DNA from: Actinoplanes lobatus
Lineage (GTDB): Bacteria; Actinomycetota; Actinomycetes; Mycobacteriales; Micromonosporaceae
Reading direction: 5' to 3'
NCBI RefSeq assembly: GCF_014205215.1
Contig: NZ_JACHNC010000001.1
Location: forward strand, 4,779,001-4,843,000
DNA length: 64,000 bases
Both the position numbers and the translations under genes were made by a program. The stretch's first letter is position 1. Every line of letters starts with the position of its first letter. The notes beneath the pieces are model-generated. The model was not told the DNA's origin, ran no database searches, and saw only the letters and a program-made list of their open reading frames with translations. This document shows positions 25,844-36,168 of this stretch, piece after piece.

Positions 25844-27341
25844 CTTCGTCGGCGCCGTCGATCAGGGCACCACCAGCACCCGGTTCATGATTTTCGACCA
25901 TGGTGGGAACGAGGTGGCCCGGCACCAGCTCGAACACGAGCAGATCCTGCCGCGGGCCGGCTGGGTGGAGCACAACCCGATCGAGATCTGGGAGCGCACG
26001 GTCGCCGTGGTGCGCACCGCCATGCAGAAGGCCAACCTTTCGGCCAGCGACCTCGCCGCGGTCGGCATCACCAACCAGCGGGAGACCACGGTCGTCTGGG
26101 ACCGCCGGACCGGGCGGCCGTACTACAACGCGATCGTCTGGCAGGACACGCGCACCGACCGGATCGCGTCGGCCCTGGACCGGGACGAGCGCGGCTCTAC
26201 TATTCGCCGCAAAGCGGGCCTTCCGCCCGCCACGTACTTCTCCGGCGGCAAGATCCAGTGGATCCTGGAGAACGTCGACGGCGTCCGGGAGGCCGCCGAA
26301 CGCGGTGACGCGCTGTTCGGCAACACCGACTCCTGGCTGCTGTGGAACATCACGCGCGGCAACCACGTCACCGACGTGACGAACGCCAGCCGCACCATGC
26401 TGATGAACCTGGAGACCCTCGACTGGGACGACGAACTGCTGTCGTTCTTCAACATCCCGCGGGCCATGCTGCCGGAGATCCGCCCGTCGTCCGACCCCAA
26501 CGGGTACGGCACCGCGCACGTCGACGGGCCGCTCGGCGGGGACGTGCCGCTCACCGGCGACCTCGGCGACCAGCAGGCCGCCACGGTCGGGCAGGTCTGC
26601 TTCAACCCGGGCGAGGCCAAGAACACCTACGGCACCGGCAACTTCATGCTGCTCAACACCGGTACGAACCTGGTGCGCTCGGAGAACGGGCTGCTCACCA
26701 CGGTCTGCTACAAGTTCGGCGACGCCGCCCCGGTCTACGCCCTGGAGGGCTCGATCGCGGTCACCGGCTCGGCCGTGCAGTGGCTGCGCGACCAGCTGCA
26801 CATCATCAAGTCGGCCGGCGAGAGCGAGTCGCTGGCCGCGCAGGTGCCGGACAACGGCGGCGTCTACTTCGTCCCGGCGTTCTCCGGGCTGTTCGCGCCG
26901 TACTGGCGCTCCGACGCCCGCGGCGCGATCGTCGGGCTGTCCCGGTTCAACACCGACGCGCACATCGCCCGGGCCACCCTGGAGGCGATCTGCTACCAGA
27001 CCCGGGACGTGGTCGACGCCATGGCGCAGGACTCCGGCGTGACCCTGGACGTGCTCAAGGTCGACGGCGGCATCACCGTCAACAACCTGTGCATGCAGAT
27101 CCAGGCCGACGTGCTCGGGGTGCAGGTCAGCCGCCCGGTGGTCGCCGAGACCACCGCCCTGGGCGCCGCCTACGCGGCCGGTCTCGCGGTCGGGTTCTGG
27201 AAGAACACCGACGAGCTGCGGGAGAACTGGAACGAGTCGCAGCGCTGGCGGCCGACCTGGTCCGCCGAACAGCGGGACCAGGGCTTCGGGAAGTGGAAGA
27301 AGGCGGTGCAGCGGACCCTCGACTGGGTGGATGTGGACTGA
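25836..27341 (+). CDS. glpK: Glycerol kinase, copy 2 (glpFKD operon)
   Basis: A 501-residue FGGY kinase with the glycerol kinase signatures [62 protein letters not shown] and [20 protein letters not shown]. The start is GTG 25836, six bases after GGAGGT, and overlaps glpF; upstream in-frame ATG codons lie inside glpF and lack a ribosome site. With glpF before it and glpD two bases after it, this is the catabolic copy: glycerol uptake, phosphorylation, then oxidation to dihydroxyacetone phosphate. Confidence 0.95.
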
Positions 27342-27343
27342 TC

Positions 27344-29041
27344 ATGACGGCTCTCTCTCCTTCGTACCGGGACGCCGCCTCGCACGCTCTCGAGCAGCGG
27401 GAGGTCGACGTGCTGGTGATCGGTGGGGGAGTGGTGGGGGCGGGTTGCGCGCTCGACGCGGTCACACGGGGACTGACCGTGGGTCTCGTCGAGGCGCGCG
27501 ACCTCGCCTCCGGCACGTCCAGCCGGTCCAGCAAACTGATCCACGGCGGGCTGCGCTACCTGGAGATGCTGGACTTCGGGCTGGTCCGCGAGGCGCTGCG
27601 GGAGCGGGGGCTGATCCTGCACCGCCTCGCGCCGCACCTGGCGCGCCCGGTCCGGTTCCTCTACCCGCTCAAGCACCGCGGCTGGGAACGCCTGTACGCC
27701 GGGGCGGGCGTCACCCTCTACGACACCCTGGCCGGCCTACGGAACATGCCGCGGCACCGGCATCTGACCCGGCGCGGCGCGCTGCGGGCCTGCCCGTCGC
27801 TGCGCCGGGACTCCCTGGTCGGCGCGTTGCAGTACTACGACGCGCAGGTCGACGACGCCCGGCACACCATGTTCCTGGCCCGGACCGCGGCCGCGCACGG
27901 CGCCCACGTGGTCACCCGGACCGAGGTCGTCGGCTTCCTCCGGGAGGGTTCCCGGATGACCGGGGTACGGGTGCACGACCTGGAACACGACCGGACGTAC
28001 GAGATCCGCGCCCAGCAGATCGTCAACGCCACCGGCGTGTGGACCGACGACACCCAGTCCCTGGTCGGCGAACGGGGGCAGTTCCACGTACGCGCCTCGA
28101 AGGGTATCCACCTGGTGGTTCCCCGCGACCGGGTCCAGTCGTCGACCGGGCTGATCCTGCGGACCGCGACAAGCGTGCTGTTCGTCATCCCGTGGGGCCG
28201 GCACTGGATCATCGGCACCACCGACACCGACTGGCGGCTCGACAAGGCGCACCCGGCGGCGTCCAGCAAGGACATCGACTACCTGCTCCGCGAGGTGAAC
28301 AAGGTCCTCGCGACACCGCTGGAACGCGCCGACGTGGAGGGGGTCTACGCCGGGCTGCGGCCGCTGCTGTCCGGCGAGTCGGAGCCGACGTCGCGGCTGT
28401 CCCGTGAGCATTCGGTGTCGAGCCCGGTGCCGGGGCTGGTGGTGGTGGCCGGCGGCAAGTACACGACGTACCGGGTGATGGCGAAGGACGCGGTCGACGC
28501 CTGTGTGCACAACCTGGCCCGGACCGTGCCGCGTTCGGTCACCGACCGGGTGCCGCTGGTCGGCGCCGACGGCTATCCGGCGCTGTGGAACCGCCGGGGC
28601 ATCCTGGCCGCCGAGTCCGGCCTGCACGTGGCCCGGGTCGAGCACCTGCTCGGCCGGTACGGCGCGCTGATCCACGAGGTGCTGGCGCTGATCCGCGACG
28701 ACCCGGACCTGGGCCGCCCGATCGAGGGCGCCGACGACTACCTGCGTGCCGAGTTCGTCTACGCGGCCGCCGCCGAGGGCGCCCGGCACCTGGTGGACGT
28801 GCTGACCAGGCGGACCCGCATCTCGATCGAGACGTTCGACCGTGGCGTGGTCGCCGCCCCGCACGCGGCCGAGCTGATGGGCCGGGTGCTCGGCTGGACG
28901 GCCGGGCAGCGCGACCGTGAGGTGGAGAACTACCGGCTGCGGGTGGCGGCGGAACGCGCCTCGCAGGAGCAGCAGGACGACGAGACGGCCGACGCGGCCC
29001 GCCTCGGCGCTCCGGACGTGGTGCCGGTGCGCGTCACATGA
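27344..29041 (+). CDS. glpD: Aerobic glycerol-3-phosphate dehydrogenase
   Basis: A 565-residue FAD enzyme that oxidises sn-glycerol 3-phosphate to dihydroxyacetone phosphate and passes electrons to membrane quinone. FAD-binding VLVIGGGVVGAGCALDAVTRG lies at residues 24-44; SSRSSKLIHGGLRYLE, VNATGVWTD and GGKYTTYRVMAKDAVDA are typical of GlpD, and the C-terminal helical domain (from about 400) is complete. ATG 27344 lies 2 bp after the glpK stop. The stop codon is embedded in the first ATGA of the 77-bp repeat at 29038. Confidence 0.94.
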   Translation: MTALSPSYRDAASHALEQREVDVLVIGGGVVGAGCALDAVTRGLTVGLVEARDLASGTSSRSSKLIHGGLRYLEMLDFGLVREALRERGLILHRLAPHLARPVRFLYPLKHRGWERLYAGAGVTLYDTLAGLRNMPRHRHLTRRGALRACPSLRRDSLVGALQYYDAQVDDARHTMFLARTAAAHGAHVVTRTEVVGFLREGSRMTGVRVHDLEHDRTYEIRAQQIVNATGVWTDDTQSLVGERGQFHVRASKGIHLVVPRDRVQSSTGLILRTATSVLFVIPWGRHWIIGTTDTDWRLDKAHPAASSKDIDYLLREVNKVLATPLERADVEGVYAGLRPLLSGESEPTSRLSREHSVSSPVPGLVVVAGGKYTTYRVMAKDAVDACVHNLARTVPRSVTDRVPLVGADGYPALWNRRGILAAESGLHVARVEHLLGRYGALIHEVLALIRDDPDLGRPIEGADDYLRAEFVYAAAAEGARHLVDVLTRRTRISIETFDRGVVAAPHAAELMGRVLGWTAGQRDREVENYRLRVAAERASQEQQDDETADAARLGAPDVVPVRVT

Positions 29042-29114
29042 GCGAGCTTGCGAGTGAATCATCAGGCTCAGTCATGAACTCATGGCGACGCCGGAGCGAA
29101 GCGGAGGTGGCGCC
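29038..29114 (+). repeat. 77-bp junction repeat, copy A
   Basis: A 77-bp element that starts with the ATGAG containing the glpD stop codon and is followed by a second ATGAG at 29115. It is about 91% identical (70 of 77) to the copy at 35411-35487, with no length difference. Near its end it carries GGAGGTGG, a ribosome binding site 5-6 nt before the second ATG. In this copy no convincing gene follows: the reading from 29115 stops after 46 codons and is antisense to the amylase, so the original downstream gene seems to have been lost. Confidence 0.85.
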
Positions 29115-29140
29115 ATGAGGGCGGGCCGCTGGGCCTTGGG

Positions 29141-31372
29141 CTACTTCCAGGTGTCGCTGATGGTGTACGCCGACGCGGTGCCGGTGGTGTACGACCGGTT
29201 GCTGCCGGACTCCCAGGTGACGGTCCCGGAGGCGTCCTTCTTGATGTACTTGTAGGTGAAGGTGGTGCTCTGCGGGACGATCACCAGCTTGCTCCAGGTC
29301 GGGTAGGACGCCGACGACAGCGGGATCGCGTTGGCGGTGTTCCAGGCGCCGAGGGAGTCGATCGAGCCGACCACGTAGACGTTCTGCCCGGTGCTGGTGG
29401 TCGCCGTCTCGTTGAAGGTGACCGCGGTGGCGCTGGCGTTCGCCACGTTCCAGCTGTTGTCGAAGGAGATCGCCGAGGTGCCGGTGCTCACCGAGCGGTT
29501 GGCGTTGCTCTCCCAGGTGACGTTCCCGGAGGAGTCCTTCTTGATGTACTTGTACTCGAAGCTGGTGCCGGACGGGATCGACACCGTCGAGGTCCAGATC
29601 GGGTAGCCACTGGCCGACAGCTTGACCGCGTTCGCCGTGTCCCAGCTGCCGAGGGCCGCGTTCGAGCCGACCACGTAGACGTCGGTGCCGGTCGTGGTGG
29701 TGGCGTACACGTTGAAGGTCGCGGCGACCGTACCGGCGCTTGTCGTGACGCTGGGCGACGGCGTGGCCGAGGTGGTGACGCTGGGCGAGGGGCTCGCGCT
29801 GGTGGCCGAAGCCGAAGGCGAGGCGGTCGGGGAGGTGGTGGTGCCGCCGCCGGAGGTGGCGTTGACGTCGATCGCCACGGCGCTGTTGGCCGGGATGGTG
29901 ACCGACGCGGTGCCGCCGGAGACGGTGATCGCGGTGCCGTTGCAGCCGGTGCTGGACGCGCCGCCGGTGATCCGGTCACAGTAGACGCCGTCGGCCAGGC
30001 CGGTGGTGTAGGTGGCGGTCGACGCGCTGGACGAGTTGTTCAGGCCGAACCAGCCGAGCGAGCCACGGCTGAACCCGATCACGTTGCCGCTGGTGGTGGT
30101 CCAGTTGGACGCCGAGGTGACGGACTGGGTGGTGTTGTGCCAGGCCACCATGCCCTTGACGCCGGTCGACCGGGTGAGGCACTGCCAGGCGCTGTTGGTG
30201 CAGTCGGTGTCGGTGACGAAACCGCTGGAGTCGGCGGGCGGCGACTGCCCGGTCGACGAGGTGGAGAAGGTGAAGCCGTCGTAGACGAACGGCTGCCCGT
30301 ACGGGTAGGCCAGCAGGAAGTAGTTGGCCAGCGTGTACTTGGTCCCGTCCTGGTAGCGCAGCGTGGTGCCGTCGCGCTCCAGGTCGTGGTTGGTGACCAT
30401 GGCGGCGGTCTGCGCGCTCGTCGCGTCCAGGCTCCACGACGGGATGGTCGACAGGTTGCCCAGCGTCCCGTTGTTGAACTGGGTCTTGAGGCCCATCGCG
30501 TAGGAGAAGCCGAGCACGTCACCGTTGGAGGTGAACGCCGACGGCAGCAGCTCGCTGTTGGACGCGCCGGTGAAGATCTCCTGCGCGATGTACGGCTTGA
30601 CGCCCTCGGCCGTGGTGTTGTTGAGCTTCGCGATGATCGCCGCGAAGTCGGCCTTGGCCACGTGCTTGGCGGCGTCCACCCGGAAGCCGTCGACGCCGAT
30701 GCCGACCAGGTCGTTCAGGTAGGCGGCGATCTTCGTCTGCACGGTGCTGCTCTGCGTCTTCAGGTCGGACAGCGACAGCAGCATGCAGTTCTGGACTTCG
30801 GAGACGTTGTTCCAGTCGTCGATCACCGCGTCGTCGTCCGAGCAGTAGCCGTCGTTCGCGTGGTGGAAGTCGTCGTAGACGTACGGCACCGCGGGGTAGC
30901 TGTAGCCGGACGGGCTGAACGTCGACCCGCCGTAGGTGGTGGTCAGCGTGTTGTTGGCGCCGGCCATGTGGTTGACGACCGCGTCCACATAGACCCGGAC
31001 GCCGGCATTGTGGCAGGCGGTGACCATGCTGGAGAACTCGGCGCGGGTGCCGAACCGGCTGGTCAGGTTGTACGACACCGGCTGGTAGATCTCCCACCAC
31101 GGGTGCACGCCGCTGTCGCTGGTCGCGAGGCTCACCGATTCGGCGGGCGGGGCCACCTGGACCGCGCCGTAACCGGCCGGGCCGAGGTGGTTCGTGCAGG
31201 CGGCCGAGACCGAGTCCCAGTTCCAGGACCACAGGTTCGCGGTGACGTCGCTGTTGTTGAGGCTGGTGGCGGCCGACGCGGTGCCCGGCAGCGTGATGGC
31301 GGTGAGACCGGCCGCGAGAGCGGCGACGGCGGAGACGGACCCGGCAAGGAGTCTGCGGGAGCGCAATTTCAT
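29141..31372 (-). CDS. Secreted alpha-amylase (GH13) with two starch-binding domains
   Basis: A 743-residue exported enzyme that hydrolyses internal alpha-1,4 bonds of starch. A signal peptide ends at about residue 34 (TASA). GH13 motifs appear in order: YVDAVVNHMAG, GFRVDAAKHV (nucleophile Asp), PYIAQEIFTG (acid/base Glu) and MVTNHDLERD. A Ser/Thr/Pro linker (about 500-545) leads to two tandem CBM20-like modules, each with VYVVGS..LGSWD or LGAWN and a FxYKYIKKD..G.VTWES core. ATG 31372 is chosen over an upstream start at 31426 because the signal peptide begins here and GAGG lies seven bases upstream. The TTGCAAG operator sits 40 bp upstream, and the closest relative of the modules in the window is on the S8 protease. 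Confidence 0.94.
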   Translation of the reverse strand: MKLRSRRLLAGSVSAVAALAAGLTAITLPGTASAATSLNNSDVTANLWSWNWDSVSAACTNHLGPAGYGAVQVAPPAESVSLATSDSGVHPWWEIYQPVSYNLTSRFGTRAEFSSMVTACHNAGVRVYVDAVVNHMAGANNTLTTTYGGSTFSPSGYSYPAVPYVYDDFHHANDGYCSDDDAVIDDWNNVSEVQNCMLLSLSDLKTQSSTVQTKIAAYLNDLVGIGVDGFRVDAAKHVAKADFAAIIAKLNNTTAEGVKPYIAQEIFTGASNSELLPSAFTSNGDVLGFSYAMGLKTQFNNGTLGNLSTIPSWSLDATSAQTAAMVTNHDLERDGTTLRYQDGTKYTLANYFLLAYPYGQPFVYDGFTFSTSSTGQSPPADSSGFVTDTDCTNSAWQCLTRSTGVKGMVAWHNTTQSVTSASNWTTTSGNVIGFSRGSLGWFGLNNSSSASTATYTTGLADGVYCDRITGGASSTGCNGTAITVSGGTASVTIPANSAVAIDVNATSGGGTTTSPTASPSASATSASPSPSVTTSATPSPSVTTSAGTVAATFNVYATTTTGTDVYVVGSNAALGSWDTANAVKLSASGYPIWTSTVSIPSGTSFEYKYIKKDSSGNVTWESNANRSVSTGTSAISFDNSWNVANASATAVTFNETATTSTGQNVYVVGSIDSLGAWNTANAIPLSSASYPTWSKLVIVPQSTTFTYKYIKKDASGTVTWESGSNRSYTTGTASAYTISDTWK

Positions 31373-31410
31373 GGAGGTGCCTCTTCTACGGAGGGCAACG
31401 CTGAGGATTG

Positions 31411-31427
31411 TTGCAAGTTCTTGCAAG
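31411..31427 (-). promoter_or_regulatory. MalR-type operator of the alpha-amylase
   Basis: Two TTGCAAG copies in direct repeat on the plus strand with a TTC spacer (31411-31417 and 31421-31427), which also form the dyad TGCAAG-TT-CTTGCA (31412-31425). This arrangement matches the repeats in Streptomyces alpha-amylase promoters bound by the LacI-family maltose repressor. The same 14-bp core lies at 17271-17284 before the S8 protease. Confidence 0.7.
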
Positions 31428-31488
31428 CGGTTTCAGGAAATTACCAAGCCGTGTCGCGCCCGTAAAGAGGTTCTTACCTATGAAAGAA

Positions 31489-31515
31489 AGCCCCGGCGGA
31501 AGGCCCGCCGGGGCT
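31489..31515 (-). terminator. Intrinsic terminator of the CDP-alcohol phosphatidyltransferase gene
   Basis: An 11-bp perfect stem (31489-31499 with 31505-31515, AGCCCCGGCGG arm) with a 5-nt loop, followed on the minus strand by a T-rich TTTCTTTC tail. It lies 17 bp after the stop codon at 31533 and also shields the amylase promoter from read-through. Confidence 0.9.
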
Positions 31516-31532
31516 GTGTGTGAGCTGTGTGC

Positions 31533-32387
31533 TCAGAGGACGGCGATCCGCCTCTGATAGGTCCTGGTAGTGGTCCAGAGCTTGTAGACCAGCAGTGACT
31601 CGAAGGCCAGCAGCAGGAGTCCGGCGGCGACCGTGACGGGCGCCAGCAACCCGGTCACCGGCCCGATGATGAACACGAACATCATGAACTCGATGCCGCT
31701 GAAGACGTGTGCGCGGATGCGCTGCCGTAGCAAGAAGTTGCGGAAGTTGAGGAAACCACCGAACCGGGCGCGGAAGTCGCCGTGCACGTCGATCGCCGAC
31801 CGGGCCTCCTCGCCGTCGAGCGGGATCTCCTCGTCGGTCTCCTCCGCGTACTCCATCGCCGTACCGGAGGCCGCGGCCGCGGCCGTCAGGTTCTCCTTCA
31901 TGGTCAGCTTGACCTTCTGCATCTGGAGCGCGTTCAGGTAGCGGAACATGTCCAGGAAGATGACGGTCGCGGCCAGCCACAGGTAGAGGGTCTCACCGGT
32001 GTGGTGCCACTGCCCGCCGAACAGCGCCAGCGAGCAGACCACCACCCGCAACCGGTCGAAGACGTAGTCCAGCCAGCTGCCGAACAGCGACCCCGTCCCG
32101 TTCAGCCGGGCGATCTTGCCGTCCATGCAGTCCAGCACGAAACCCAGGTGGAACAGCAGCGCGCCGACGAGCAGCCACCGGTACTCCGCCTGCCAGAACG
32201 CCGCCGCCGCGCCCAGGCCCAGCGCGAACGCGCCCAGACTCAGCACGTTCGGCGTGACCGGGCGCCACGGGGCGACCAGCCACACCAGCCGGGACGCGAG
32301 CGGATCCACCAGCCACACCGTCCACCACGAGTCCCGGCGTTTATAGGTGCGCTCACGGATCTCCGCGAGCGAGGGTCGCTGTGCCAT
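31533..32387 (-). CDS. CDP-alcohol phosphatidyltransferase family membrane enzyme
   Basis: A 284-residue integral membrane protein with the complete family signature D-x2-D-G-x2-A-R-x8-G-x3-D-x3-D, seen as DCMDGKIAR then GSWLDYVFD. It transfers the phosphate-linked group of a CDP-alcohol to a second alcohol, making a phospholipid or a soluble phosphodiester. It is longer than PgsA-type enzymes because of a charged loop (about residues 165-215), so the acceptor is uncertain; a polyol-phosphate or inositol-type lipid is possible. The start at 32387 is preferred over 32474. No operon partner is evident. Confidence 0.88.
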   Translation of the reverse strand: MAQRPSLAEIRERTYKRRDSWWTVWLVDPLASRLVWLVAPWRPVTPNVLSLGAFALGLGAAAAFWQAEYRWLLVGALLFHLGFVLDCMDGKIARLNGTGSLFGSWLDYVFDRLRVVVCSLALFGGQWHHTGETLYLWLAATVIFLDMFRYLNALQMQKVKLTMKENLTAAAAASGTAMEYAEETDEEIPLDGEEARSAIDVHGDFRARFGGFLNFRNFLLRQRIRAHVFSGIEFMMFVFIIGPVTGLLAPVTVAAGLLLLAFESLLVYKLWTTTRTYQRRIAVL

Positions 32388-32470
32388 CGCTGTCTCTCCT
32401 CGGCCTGTGCAGCGCGAGGGCTTCTTCTGGGGTGGGACCCCCTGCGCTGCGCGTATTGAACACCCGGGAG

Positions 32471-33019
32471 TCAAGATCCGTCTGCCCCGTCGCGGCGCGC
32501 GAACACCACCGAGGCCACCACGAAGATCAACACACCGGCGAGCGGCAGCCGGCCGGTCACCTCACCCCAGTGCGTGCGGATCAAGGGAAACCCGATCTCG
32601 TACGCGACGAGCACCGCCCCCGCGGCCCCGACCGGATGCCGGATCAACAACCCCACCCCGGCCGCGACCAGCGTGTCCACCACCAGTGACAGCGTCCCGC
32701 CCGGCTCCCCGGCGGTGCCCGCGACCAGCAGCGCGGCCGGCGCCGCCAGCACCACCAGGGCCACCGCCTTCGCCGCCACGAGCCGGTACCGCCGCGGCAT
32801 CGCCAGCAGCGTGGTCCGGATCTGGCCGCCGCCCTGGTACTCGTGGGCCGTCGCCAGCACACCCAGGATCAGGAACCCCACCTGCCCGTACGGCAGCACC
32901 GAGCCGCCCGGCGGATCCAGCGCGTCCAGCAGCAGCGTGACCGCCCAGGTCAGGCCCAGGGTGAGCGCCAGCGACCGCAGGGTGAGCAGCTTCTCCACCT
33001 CGGCCCGGACCGTGTTCAC
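32471..33019 (-). CDS. ABC transporter permease, second subunit
   Basis: A 182-residue hydrophobic protein with about five membrane helices and the opening VNTVRAEVEKLLTLRSLALT, where EVEKLLTLRS is the cytosolic coupling segment also found in the neighbouring permease (ELRKLLGLRT). It also shares YQGGGQIRTTLLAMPRRYRL with that subunit's EYTPTGD..QLTTTLAAMPRRARL. It begins with GTG 33019, overlapping the previous stop by 4 nt. Together with the ATPase it forms a small ABC-2-like exporter; substrate unknown. Confidence 0.8.
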   Translation of the reverse strand: MNTVRAEVEKLLTLRSLALTLGLTWAVTLLLDALDPPGGSVLPYGQVGFLILGVLATAHEYQGGGQIRTTLLAMPRRYRLVAAKAVALVVLAAPAALLVAGTAGEPGGTLSLVVDTLVAAGVGLLIRHPVGAAGAVLVAYEIGFPLIRTHWGEVTGRLPLAGVLIFVVASVVFARRDGADGS

Positions 33020-33765
33020 GCGTCCCGCCTGCCGAACAGCCACCCGGCCAGGGCCAGCAGCGCCGCCACCCACGCCGACATCACCAGCCCGGCGGTCACC
33101 GGGGCGACGTCGTGGTCGCCCACCTCGTTCAGGAACATGTGCGCCCCCACGATGTCCGGCAGGTAGACGGCCGCGCTGGTCACCTTGGTCAGCAGGTAGG
33201 ACACCGAGACGACCGAGGTGTTCACCACCAGCACGGTCAGCGTGACGATCCCGTTCCGGAAGATCAGCGTGAGGGCGTACGCCAGCAGCCCGATCAGCAC
33301 CCAGTAGAGAACCGCCCCGGCCAGCCGCCCGGGCGCCGGCGACGGCACCAGCGAACCGTGCACCAGCCGGGTCACCGCCAGCGTCGCCACCGTCGTGACC
33401 ATCCCCTGCACCGCCACCACCAGCGTCAGCGCGGCGCCCTTGGCGGTCAGCAGCCGGGCCCGCCGGGGCATCGCCGCCAGTGTGGTGGTGAGCTGCCGGG
33501 CGCCCGGCGCGTCGTCCCCGGTGGGCGTGTACTCGCTGCTCACCGTCACCACCCCGAGGATCATCGCGCCCAGCACGCCGATGCCCAGTGTCTGGAACCC
33601 CAGGTCGGACGCGTCGGTGTAGAGGCCCTCGGCGATCGCCCGGCGGGTGCTCCCGGCCGACACGAACACCAGCGCCGGCGCGGCCAGGAACCCCACCAGC
33701 AGGCCGATCCAGGCGGTCCGCAACCCGAGCAGTTTCCGCAGCTCGGCGTCGAGAAGGCTCACCAC
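33016..33765 (-). CDS. ABC transporter permease, first subunit
   Basis: A 249-residue ABC-2-like permease with about six membrane helices. The N-terminal MVSLLDAELRKLLGLRTAWI and the loop SSEYTPTGDDAPGARQLTTT are typical of permeases of drug or antimicrobial-peptide exporters. Its start overlaps the ATPase gene by 7 nt and its stop overlaps the second permease by 4 nt, so the three genes form one translationally coupled unit. Confidence 0.82.
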   Translation of the reverse strand: MVSLLDAELRKLLGLRTAWIGLLVGFLAAPALVFVSAGSTRRAIAEGLYTDASDLGFQTLGIGVLGAMILGVVTVSSEYTPTGDDAPGARQLTTTLAAMPRRARLLTAKGAALTLVVAVQGMVTTVATLAVTRLVHGSLVPSPAPGRLAGAVLYWVLIGLLAYALTLIFRNGIVTLTVLVVNTSVVSVSYLLTKVTSAAVYLPDIVGAHMFLNEVGDHDVAPVTAGLVMSAWVAALLALAGWLFGRRDA

Positions 33766-34469
33766 GACACACCCTCGCTCCCGGTCTTCGCCAGGAACGC
33801 GTCCTCCAGGGTGGCGTGCCCGCCGACCACCTCGGCCAGCTCACCGGACGCCACCACCCGGCCGCGGTCGATGATCACCACGTCGTCCACGGTCTCCGCC
33901 AGCTCACCCATCAGGTGACTGGAGAGCAGCACGGTCCGCCCGGCGGCCGCGCTGTCCCGCAGGAACGTGCGCATCCACCGGATCCCGGCCGGGTCCAGCC
34001 CGTTCACCGGCTCGTCCAGGATCAGCACCGGCGGATCGCCGAGCAGCGCGGCGGCCAGCCCCAGACGGCGGCTCATCCCGAGCGAGAACCGGCCGGCCCG
34101 CTTGCCCGCCTCGGCGCTCAGCCCGACCAGGTCCAGCACCTCGCCGACACGGGAGCGGGGCAGCCCGTTGCTCGCCGCCACCCAGCGCAGATGCGCCCGC
34201 GCCGACCGGGAACGGTGGGCCCCGCTGCCGTCCAGCAGCGCCCCGGCCACGGTGAGCGGGCGGTCGTGGTCGGCGTACCGGCGGCCGTCGATCAGGGCGG
34301 TCCCGCCCTGCGGACGGTCCAGGCCGAGCAGCACCCGCAGCGTGGTCGTCTTGCCCGCGCCGTTCGGCCCGAGGAACCCGGTCACCCGCCCGGGCCGCGC
34401 CGTGAAACTCACCTCGTGCAGGACCCGGGTCCGGCCGCGGACCCGGGTGACACCATCGATCGTGATCAT
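33759..34469 (-). CDS. ABC transporter ATP-binding protein
   Basis: A 236-residue ATPase: Walker A GFLGPNGAGKTTTLRVLLGL (near residue 35), a signature sequence reading SLGMSRRLGLAAALLG in place of LSGGQ-type wording, Walker B VLILDEPVNGLDP and H-loop LLSSHLMGELAE. This is the DRA/bacitracin-type subgroup that powers two-subunit exporters such as the permeases downstream. It is divergent from the two-component system at 34569-36168, the usual sign that the kinase-regulator pair controls the exporter. ATG 34469 is chosen because the conserved fold begins at once. Confidence 0.92.
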   Translation of the reverse strand: MITIDGVTRVRGRTRVLHEVSFTARPGRVTGFLGPNGAGKTTTLRVLLGLDRPQGGTALIDGRRYADHDRPLTVAGALLDGSGAHRSRSARAHLRWVAASNGLPRSRVGEVLDLVGLSAEAGKRAGRFSLGMSRRLGLAAALLGDPPVLILDEPVNGLDPAGIRWMRTFLRDSAAAGRTVLLSSHLMGELAETVDDVVIIDRGRVVASGELAEVVGGHATLEDAFLAKTGSEGVSW

Positions 34470-34555
34470 ATGGGCAGTCAACCGGCGGCCCGGCCCGGCC
34501 ACATCGGACCCAGCTCGGGGATCGCCTCGCCCGTCTACGACCCTGGTCCGAGGAA

Positions 34556-34568
34556 TAGAGTCGGCCCG
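34556..34568 (+). promoter_or_regulatory. Leaderless-type promoter of the histidine kinase gene
   Basis: A -10 box TAGAGT (34556-34561) is followed after seven bases by the GTG start at 34569, so transcription is expected to begin at or one base before the start codon. No Shine-Dalgarno sequence is in place, which supports choosing this GTG. Confidence 0.55.
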
Positions 34569-35414
34569 GTGAACGCCAACCCCCGGCCCGCGTGGCGCAG
34601 CCGGGCCGTGCCGGTCGTCGTGGTCGTCGCCGCGGTGCTGATCATGGCCATGTGCACGGTCGGGACCTCCGGCCCGCTGTCCCGGATCATCCCGGTGGTG
34701 ATCGGCGGCGGGGCGGCCACCGCGGCGGTGTGGTCGGTGCGCCGGTGGCGGGCCGACCGGGCCGCCTACGAGCGGCGGCTCACCGAGTGGGCGGCCACCG
34801 AGGCGGTGCTGGCCGAACGGCTGCACATCGCCCGCGACCTGCATGATCTCGTGTCGCACGGGCTCGGGCTGATCACCGTACGGGCGGCGGCCACCCGGCA
34901 CCTGCCCGCGCCCGCCGAGATCCGGGCCGCTCTCGACGACATCGAGGAGACCAGCCGCGACGCCACCGCCGAACTGCGCCGCATGCTCGGCGTGCTCCGC
35001 GAGCCCACCGCGCCCGGCCCGCGCGCGCCGGTGGAGGGCCTCGACGCGCTGCCCGGCATCGTCGCGGCCGCCGCGGCCGCCGGGGTGCGGGCCCGGCTGC
35101 ACGCCGGTGAGCTCGGGGACGTGCCGCCGGGCGTCCAGGTGGCGGTCTGCCGGACGGTCCGGGAGGGCCTCGCCAACACGGCCCGGCACGCCGGCCCGGC
35201 CGACGCCACGGTCCGGGTGCACCGCGACGGGAGACATGTGGTGGTGAGCGTCGCCGACAGCGGCCCGGCCCACGGCTGGCGGCCCACCCCGGGCGCCGGG
35301 CACGGCCTCGCCGGGCTGCGGGAACGCGTCGGCAGCCTGGGCGGCACCCTGTCGGCCGAGCGGGTCGAGGCGGGCTTCCGCCTCACCGCCCGGATCCCGG
35401 ACGAGCCGCAATGA
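34569..35414 (+). CDS. Sensor histidine kinase (HisKA_3/NarL-type)
   Basis: A 281-residue membrane kinase. Two short membrane helices (about residues 13-31 and 37-56) with almost no outside loop indicate sensing within the membrane. The phosphorylated His is in IARDLHDLVSHGLGLI; dimerisation helices follow, then the ATPase with N-box TVREGLANTARHAG, G1 VADSGPAHGW and the GAGHGLAGLRERV lid. Its stop lies in the first ATGA of the 77-bp repeat that separates it from the regulator. Divergent orientation from an ABC exporter suggests it detects a cell-envelope agent and induces that exporter. Confidence 0.9.
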   Translation: MNANPRPAWRSRAVPVVVVVAAVLIMAMCTVGTSGPLSRIIPVVIGGGAATAAVWSVRRWRADRAAYERRLTEWAATEAVLAERLHIARDLHDLVSHGLGLITVRAAATRHLPAPAEIRAALDDIEETSRDATAELRRMLGVLREPTAPGPRAPVEGLDALPGIVAAAAAAGVRARLHAGELGDVPPGVQVAVCRTVREGLANTARHAGPADATVRVHRDGRHVVVSVADSGPAHGWRPTPGAGHGLAGLRERVGSLGGTLSAERVEAGFRLTARIPDEPQ

Positions 35415-35487
35415 GCGAGCTTGCGAGCGAATCATCGGGCTCAGTCTTGAACTCATTGCGATGCCGGAGCGCAGCGGAGGTGGCGCA
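35411..35487 (+). repeat. 77-bp junction repeat, copy B, between kinase and response regulator
   Basis: Same length and about 91% identical to copy A (29038-29114). It begins with the ATGA that ends the kinase gene and ends directly before the ATGAG that starts the response regulator. Removing it would leave a classic ATGA stop/start overlap, so it looks as if it had inserted into a coupled junction and duplicated the ATGAG. Its last 15 bases carry GGAGGTGGCGCA, a strong ribosome site for the following ATG; it also carries an in-frame ATG at 35461 that could add nine residues to the regulator. Confidence 0.88.
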
Positions 35488-36168
35488 ATGAGCCTGAAGC
35501 CGGCCGACGGGGTCACCCGCGTTCTGGTGGTGGACGACCAGCCGCTGCTCCGGCAGAGCCTCGCCATGATCCTCGGGCACGAGCCGGACATCGAGGTGGC
35601 CGGGCAGGCCGCGGACGGGGCGGAGGCGGTGCTGCGGGCCCGGGCGGCGCGGCCGGACGTGGTGCTCATGGACGTACGCATGCCGGGTGTCGATGGTCTT
35701 GAGGCGACCCGGCGGATCTGTGCCGACCCGGCCCTGACCGGCACCCGGGTGCTGGTGCTCAGCATGTTCGAGCTGGACGAGTACGTCTACGAGGCCCTCC
35801 AGGCGGGAGCGTCCGGTTTCCTGCTCAAGGACGCCCGGCCGGAGGACCTGGTGGAGGCGGTCCGGCGCACCGGCCGGGGCGAGTCGCTGTTCGCCCCGTC
35901 GATCCTCACCCGGCTGGTGGCCCACTACGTGGCGGCACCCCGGCCGGAACGGGTCCGGGCGCTGCGGCACCTCACGCCCCGCGAGGTGGAGGTGCTCGCC
36001 CTGATCGGCAACGGCCTGGCCAACGACGAGATCGCCACGGCGCTGGCCATCTCGGTCAAGACGGTGAAGACCCACATCACCCACCTGCTCGCCAAACTGG
36101 CCGCCCGCGACCGCGCCCAGCTGGTGATCGCCGCCTTCAACGCCGGTCTGGTCCGCCCCCGCGCCTGA
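35488..36168 (+). CDS. NarL/FixJ-type response regulator
   Basis: A 226-residue regulator: receiver domain (VLVVDDQPLLRQSL acidic pair; phosphoacceptor Asp in VVLMDVRMPG; conserved Lys in GFLLKDARPEDL) and C-terminal LuxR-type helix-turn-helix (LTPREVEVLALIGNGLANDE, IATALAISVKTVKTHITHL). It is the partner of the kinase upstream. ATG 35488 is used; the alternative at 35461 lies wholly inside the repeat element. Likely target: the divergent exporter operon. Confidence 0.93.
   Translation: MSLKPADGVTRVLVVDDQPLLRQSLAMILGHEPDIEVAGQAADGAEAVLRARAARPDVVLMDVRMPGVDGLEATRRICADPALTGTRVLVLSMFELDEYVYEALQAGASGFLLKDARPEDLVEAVRRTGRGESLFAPSILTRLVAHYVAAPRPERVRALRHLTPREVEVLALIGNGLANDEIATALAISVKTVKTHITHLLAKLAARDRAQLVIAAFNAGLVRPRA

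Follow-up and report, generated by a model that had tools for sequence, protein, structure and literature searches.

A 77-bp repeat at stop/start junctions of Actinoplanes lobatus, probably a mobile mini-cistron that relays translational coupling

What becomes of translational coupling when a repeat settles exactly where one gene stops and the next one starts? The question is raised by two copies of a 77-bp repeat in a stretch of 64,000 nucleotides from Actinoplanes lobatus (contig NZ_JACHNC010000001.1, positions 4,779,001 to 4,843,000), called the window here. Copy A (29038-29114) and copy B (35411-35487), both on the forward strand, are identical at 70 of the 77 positions (90.9%) and are the only places in the window with 34 or fewer mismatches in 77, both strands having been scanned. 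Each starts with ATGA, the TGA of which ends the upstream frame, and is directly followed by ATGAG, as a preliminary description of this DNA had stated. That description had the junctions but overlooked that each copy is itself an unbroken open reading frame (ORF) of 26 codons plus a stop, with an ATGA overlap at either end: the first ATGA combines the stop codon of the upstream gene with the start of the mini-ORF, and the second combines the mini-ORF stop with the next start codon. Together with the ATGA common to the following sequence, copy A occupies 29038-29118 (mini-ORF MSELASESSGSVMNSWRRRSEAEVAP, then the stop codon) and copy B 35411-35491 (mini-ORF MSELASESSGSVLNSLRCRSAAEVAQ, likewise). 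We consider it probable that the repeat is a non-autonomous mobile mini-cistron across which coupling is relayed, and that it works like the mycobacterial interspersed repetitive units (MIRUs) reportedly described by Supply et al. in 1997, which are known mainly as typing markers for tuberculosis.

In the 10.4-Mb genome, a 26-base pattern representing the 5' core of the element, with up to three mismatches allowed, was found at 72 places and the reversed pattern, used as a control, at none, which rules out a chance repeat. The 3' core, for which the control again gave none, was found at 80 places and added 11 to these 72; the total is thus at least 83 places (72 + 11), the most divergent of which may not all be true members. 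With an 81-base query, 40 of the 88 first-look candidates were scored and 55 matches reached E ≤ 0.001. The 72 copies are arranged in 57 sites, namely 44 single, 11 double and two triple ones, and the tandem copies at 13 of the 57 sites, spaced at 77-78 bp, may have arisen by unequal exchange or slippage. As the preliminary description had anticipated, the copies lie mostly on stop/start junctions of same-strand genes throughout the genome: at 52 of the 57 sites the TGA of the 5' ATGA ends an upstream frame 165 or more codons long (in some cases truncated by the end of the locus), and the 3' border is ATGA at all 56 sites where it could be set.

The length of the copies follows a rule. Start-to-start length is 3n-1, with an intact ORF, in 69 of the 72 copies (77 bp in 66, and 47, 56 and 44 bp once each), and two copies of 3n length read on in frame, namely the first copy of locus L035 (78 bp) and L056 (54 bp). 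Among the 11 extra places found by the 3' core, seven are 53 bp long, one is 56 bp and one 35 bp; L241 and L243, both short and both among these extra copies, begin with GTGA. The same two states are seen in other genomes. In G086 and G106, which represent a second genus and from which 12 loci were read, there are ATGA-coupled units of 74 bp (seven tandem junctions; 41 bp in L246), and at L251, L252, L254 and L255 there are tandem units of 75 bp (10 junctions) in which the internal ATGA is gone and one continuous ORF results. Five 25-codon units form a single ORF in L254, and the in-frame array of L251 continues into the following sequence, as does the last unit of L248. In G140 and G204, which belong to the same genus as A. 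lobatus, eight loci carry 77-bp units, up to four in tandem, and one unit of 47 bp; in L262 of this set the 3' ATGA is replaced by CTGA and the frame continues.

With at most two mismatches, the 5' pattern is present in 43 of 300 genomes of the family (that of A. lobatus included), in a patchy manner and at up to 117 places per genome (G086), most of these places being unread. When three mismatches were allowed, it was recognized in six of 40 relatives, again including A. lobatus itself and also G038, probably by chance. Among 396 genomes of the phylum, a sample with one other member of the family, it was found in that of A. lobatus only, and plasmid records gave no match to the element. The best matches of GlpK among plasmid records, at 77%, were in Streptomyces, as would suit an actinomycete.

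The preliminary description had regarded the repeat as a small, apparently mobile element placed at a stop/start junction (DTGA) with both proteins left intact, and had predicted empty orthologous junctions; these exist in relatives. Joined flanks of 34 sites were used as queries, and 30 junctions in the related genome G019 were informative: 27 are empty and three are filled (L002, L063 and L067). Together with the end of glpD, the gene upstream of copy A, 28 of 31 are empty. At the response-regulator junction of copy B, G019 reads ...GACGAGCCCCG-GTGAGCC, with an orthologue that is 96% identical and is directly coupled via GTGA. In L018, L027, L031, L039 and L043, which are among the 27 empty calls, the aligned flanks are separated by -10 to +9 bases and there is no element. 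L008, L021, L050 and L054 failed the two-sided rule in G019 (L050 aligns across the join, mainly on the downstream side), and L022, outside the 34 queried sites, was excluded with its match to a 79% paralogue. In a second relative, G007, the 19 places read (out of 42 matched) comprise 18 that lack the element and one that is filled (L023). These empty sites argue that the element is mobile. One filled site, L002, holds one copy in A. lobatus and two in G019. At L228, the G019 orthologue of L067, an insert of 176 bases resembles a tandem array of four units, each about 44 bp long, where A. lobatus has one, and it looks as if this short class expands on its own.

The glpD end in G019 is likewise empty, reading ATGAGGCGGGCC, and the sequence after it is almost unchanged. 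In neither G019 nor the window does a frame longer than 60 codons start within about 30 nt of this end. Copy A therefore did not lose a downstream gene, contrary to what had been proposed, and insertion apparently required no more than an ATGAG at a stop codon.

The second half of the element holds a hairpin that covers the next start codon. Element positions 42-50 pair with 74-82, the next ATG being at 78-80 and base 82 belonging to the host gene; in copy A the hairpin (positions 42-82) spans 29079-29119 and includes the second ATG, and in copy B it spans 35452-35492 and includes the response-regulator ATG with one base of codon 2. In a set of 52 outer copies, compared with 5000 shuffles, pair 47-77 is formed in 51 (G-C 32, C-G 8, T-A 7, T-G 3 and G-T 1; shuffle mean 27.1) and pair 42-82 in 49 (C-G 40, G-C 6, T-A 2 and A-T 1; shuffle mean 35.8), and none of the 5000 shuffles was as good for either. 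In register the nine-pair helix reaches 94.2% pairing, which drops to 20-58% upon a shift of one to three positions. When the 41-nt hairpin was excised from the 52 copies and folded against 60 shuffles each, the mean z was -3.88, with 48 of the 52 below -2, and the AUG was paired in all 52 predicted folds.

Since the 26-codon ORF is coupled at both ends, the 3n-1 length is kept and a covarying hairpin encloses the downstream AUG, coupling is probably relayed and not, as the preliminary description had it, converted to independent initiation. A ribosome ending the upstream gene would reinitiate on the mini-ORF; on reading to the TGA of the mini-ORF it would melt the hairpin and then reinitiate on the downstream gene. 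With coupling relayed across the insert, an insertion would be nearly neutral and the translation of the operon would be kept. At element positions 37-40, many copies have an ATGA (29074-29077 in copy A) or a TTGA (35447-35450 in copy B) in another frame, and this could possibly act as a fall-back relay upon a frame shift.

Several observations weigh against relayed coupling, or against the hairpin as its basis. At five of the 57 sites the 5' ATGA itself closes no long frame: the overlap is TAATG or TGATG in L037 and L062, and the long upstream frame stops 16, 2 and 4 codons earlier in L024, L057 and L064, respectively. Three copies break the length rule, namely L049 (76 bp), the internal TTGA of which could still serve as a relay, and, among the extra places, L238 (49 bp) and L240 (71 bp, with an internal stop). 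Pair 48-76 is formed in only 31 of the 52 copies (shuffle mean 22.2; two of 5000 as good), and the fold of the whole element is unremarkable in copy B (z = -0.93; -3.85 in copy A). The types of base 47 cluster by subfamily (34.1 of 52 nearest neighbors of the same type, against 24.6 expected from shuffles; one of 300 as good) and those of base 42 cluster weakly (39.2 against 35.9; 17 of 300 as good). Because the copies are related and the types are clustered, independent changes are fewer than copies, and the shuffle counts are not to be read as probabilities. Several of the changes at base 42 nevertheless look independent, because most copies with G42, T42 or A42 have nearest neighbors with C42.

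The covariation could also have arisen from quasi-palindrome correction (template switching) instead of selection, the hairpin then being a by-product with no role in translation. This mechanism is generally known and would match both arms of the hairpin without any selection; we regard it as unlikely here. The persistence of G-U pairs (in 13 of 65 copies at 45-79 and in 47 of 65 at 53-71) fits selection at the level of RNA better than correction at the level of DNA, and correction leaves the length rule unexplained.

It is distinctly unlikely that the element is an independent-initiation module, which would bring its own ribosome binding site and uncouple the two genes. The motif GGAGG at element positions 66-70 (29103-29107 in copy A and 35476-35480 in copy B), which reads as Shine-Dalgarno-like, does not vary among the 65 distinct copies of 77 bp, and a ribosome-binding-site motif before the second ATG had been pointed out previously; the motif is there, but the spacing of 5-6 nt given for it does not hold, as GGAGGTGG ends 4 nt and GGAGG 7 nt upstream. 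In the predicted folds GGAGG is paired at its last two bases but nearly always free at its first three, a further point against relayed coupling that leaves independent initiation some chance. Such a module would not, however, account for the ATGA overlap at both ends, the 3n-1 rule or the AUG within the covarying hairpin, and in the second, sister genus the tandem units of 3n length read on in frame.

A further possibility concerns the choice of the insertion site, and here the borders of the element are informative. The 28 empty sites in G019 read ATGA in 20 cases and GTGA in eight, whereas the outer borders are ATGA in all 55 filled sites examined (L056 and L049 left out), so that the simple duplication of ATGAG supposed earlier is not supported. 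The first and second bases before the 5' ATGA agree site by site with those before the 3' ATGA in 30 and 29 of the 55 sites (permutation means 20.2 and 16.6; 0 of 2000 as good), and the third base is at chance (20 against 20.3). When the base at -1 was compared with that of the empty relative in 27 sites, the 5' border had retained it in 18 and the 3' border in 17; 13 sites retain it at both borders and five at neither. These figures suggest a short common border NN-ATGA with correction toward either side.

The agreement between the two borders is also what would be expected if the internal arm (positions 42-48) paired with the target NN-DTGA-N at insertion or was written from it, a reading that we hold to be very unlikely; that the site was chosen or copied through an arm 5'-N-TCAT-NN complementary to the start-codon region NN-DTGA-N is more doubtful still. 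If G-U is accepted, arm base 47 can pair with position -1 of the empty relative in 21 of 27 sites (12.5 expected; 0 of 5000 as good), a result that was 20 of 24 in an earlier subset of hand-typed sites before L013, L018 and L027 were added, and it pairs with the outer 5' flank in 34 of 51 sites (23.7 expected; five of 5000). With Watson-Crick pairs alone the effect is weaker (15 of 27 against 9.7; 65 of 5000), base 47 tracks the 3' end (51 of 52) more closely than the 5' end (34 of 51), and the target base retained at the 3' border accounts for part of the match. For most copies with an unusual base 42 the nearest neighbors are ordinary, which favors later compensation. Guide subfamilies, in which G42 elements would aim at ATGAC sites, are not supported, on the same ground, although L040 and L052 may be related (L021 and L044 are among the nearest copies of L040, and L040 among those of L052). 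If pairing with the target did guide insertion, the element would be a sequence-guided mobile mini-gene that enters start codons with translational coupling preserved.

Finally, a fixed regulatory leader inherited immobile with its operons, which the exact placement at gene junctions might suggest, is hardly credible, since the element is missing from most orthologous junctions of G019 (28 of 31) and G007 (18 of 19), which contradicts such a leader unless all of these are precise deletions, and since the pattern is confined to 43 of the 300 family genomes.

The genes around the mini-cistrons are diverse. Upstream of copy A, a mechanically listed frame (26342-29041, + strand) contains glpD in its 3' part and ends with the TGA inside the 5' ATGA of the element; the name glpD comes from the preliminary description and agrees with the protein sequence as read. 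Upstream of copy B, the frame similarly listed at 33588-35414 (+) contains in its 3' part a gene named a histidine kinase in that description, the true start of which lies later, and the response regulator follows at 35488-36168 (+). On the opposite strand, a long ORF at 29141-31426 resembling, as judged from its sequence, an alpha-amylase converges on copy A; because it ends 26 nt past the second ATG, copy A is the last in its gene row. Elsewhere in the genome the neighbors include what look, from their proteins, like ruvA/ruvB (L063), nuoG/nuoH (L065), sdhA (L064) and rph/rdgB (L045), besides the kinase/regulator pair of the window.

Among known small elements, REP/REPIN and miniature elements of the IS200/IS605 type are, as far as we are aware, likewise short, hairpin-bearing, non-autonomous and present in many copies. 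They are not known to be linked to stop/start codons or to have a coupled ORF, and the extragenic, non-coding placement of REP/REPIN differs from the gene junctions occupied here. Coupled leader minigenes and bicistronic designs (PMC12548453) also hand ribosomes from a short ORF to the next gene; in our case, however, the minigene is a dispersed repeat that has entered between two genes already present.

The closest parallel is provided by the MIRUs, which are apparently mobile, insert at start codons and carry an ORF coupled at -4 (PMC12548453); they measure 77 and 53 bp at senX3-regX3 (PMC4213456, PMC2453075), where promoter activity has been reported for the repeat (PMC4213456), and occupy 41 locations in M. 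tuberculosis H37Rv (PMC2734929). Like them, the element described here is a dispersed repeat in the range of 40-100 bp (77 bp, and also 53, 56, 47 and 44 bp, with one copy of 35 bp below the range), and the sizes of 77 and 53 bp occur in both. Start codons inside operons, an internal ORF coupled at -4, tandem copies and empty sites in relatives are also common to the two (for MIRUs, PMC12548453, PMC4213456, PMC2734929, PMC2453075 and PMC4128351). In the mycobacterial loci that we read, regX3 is separated from the senX3 stop by a 53-bp unit in L078-L080 (18 codons in L078 and L079; ending in TGATG in L080), and senX3 and regX3 overlap directly, with no unit, in L076, L077, L081 and L082. In Mycolicibacterium sediminis (L092, 1036-1194), the start region of regX3 is repeated upstream of the gene as three 53-bp units, the first of which is a 17-codon ORF with a RegX3-like beginning and a TGATG end; here a coupled unit of 53 bp seems to have originated separately, out of the start of the gene itself. 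A record titled as an Acidobacteria bacterium metagenome-assembled genome (L085) has senX3/regX3 of mycobacterial type (RegX3 identity 93%) with a 59-bp MIRU-like unit after a shorter one, and is probably a misassigned bin.

The element differs from MIRUs in sequence. In local alignments of its consensus with five mycobacterial units, a set that does not contain the 77-bp unit of M. tuberculosis, 13, 73, 129, 177 and 639 of 1000 shuffles were as good, so that the similarity is not significant for four of the five and weak for one (13 of 1000). As homology of sequence is not shown by these values, we describe the element as working like a MIRU and do not class it as one. It also differs in number (up to 117 pattern places per genome in G086 against the 41 locations in H37Rv; PMC2734929), and the covarying start-codon hairpin and the in-frame arrays are described here. 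The element probably stands outside the mycobacteria; no description of such elements outside mycobacteria was found in the openly searchable literature, to which the search was confined, and the available part of the genome paper on Actinoplanes SE50/110 (PMC3364876) makes no mention of them. A family that shares the MIRU design, be it independent or only very distantly related, suggests that mobile mini-cistrons are a general way of entering operons without breaking them. Dozens of insertions, together with the empty sites of related species, form a natural experiment on translational coupling, and the mechanism can be tested directly through the hairpin pairs, one of which involves a base of the host gene, and through the alternation of units between lengths of 3n-1 (reinitiation) and 3n (reading on).

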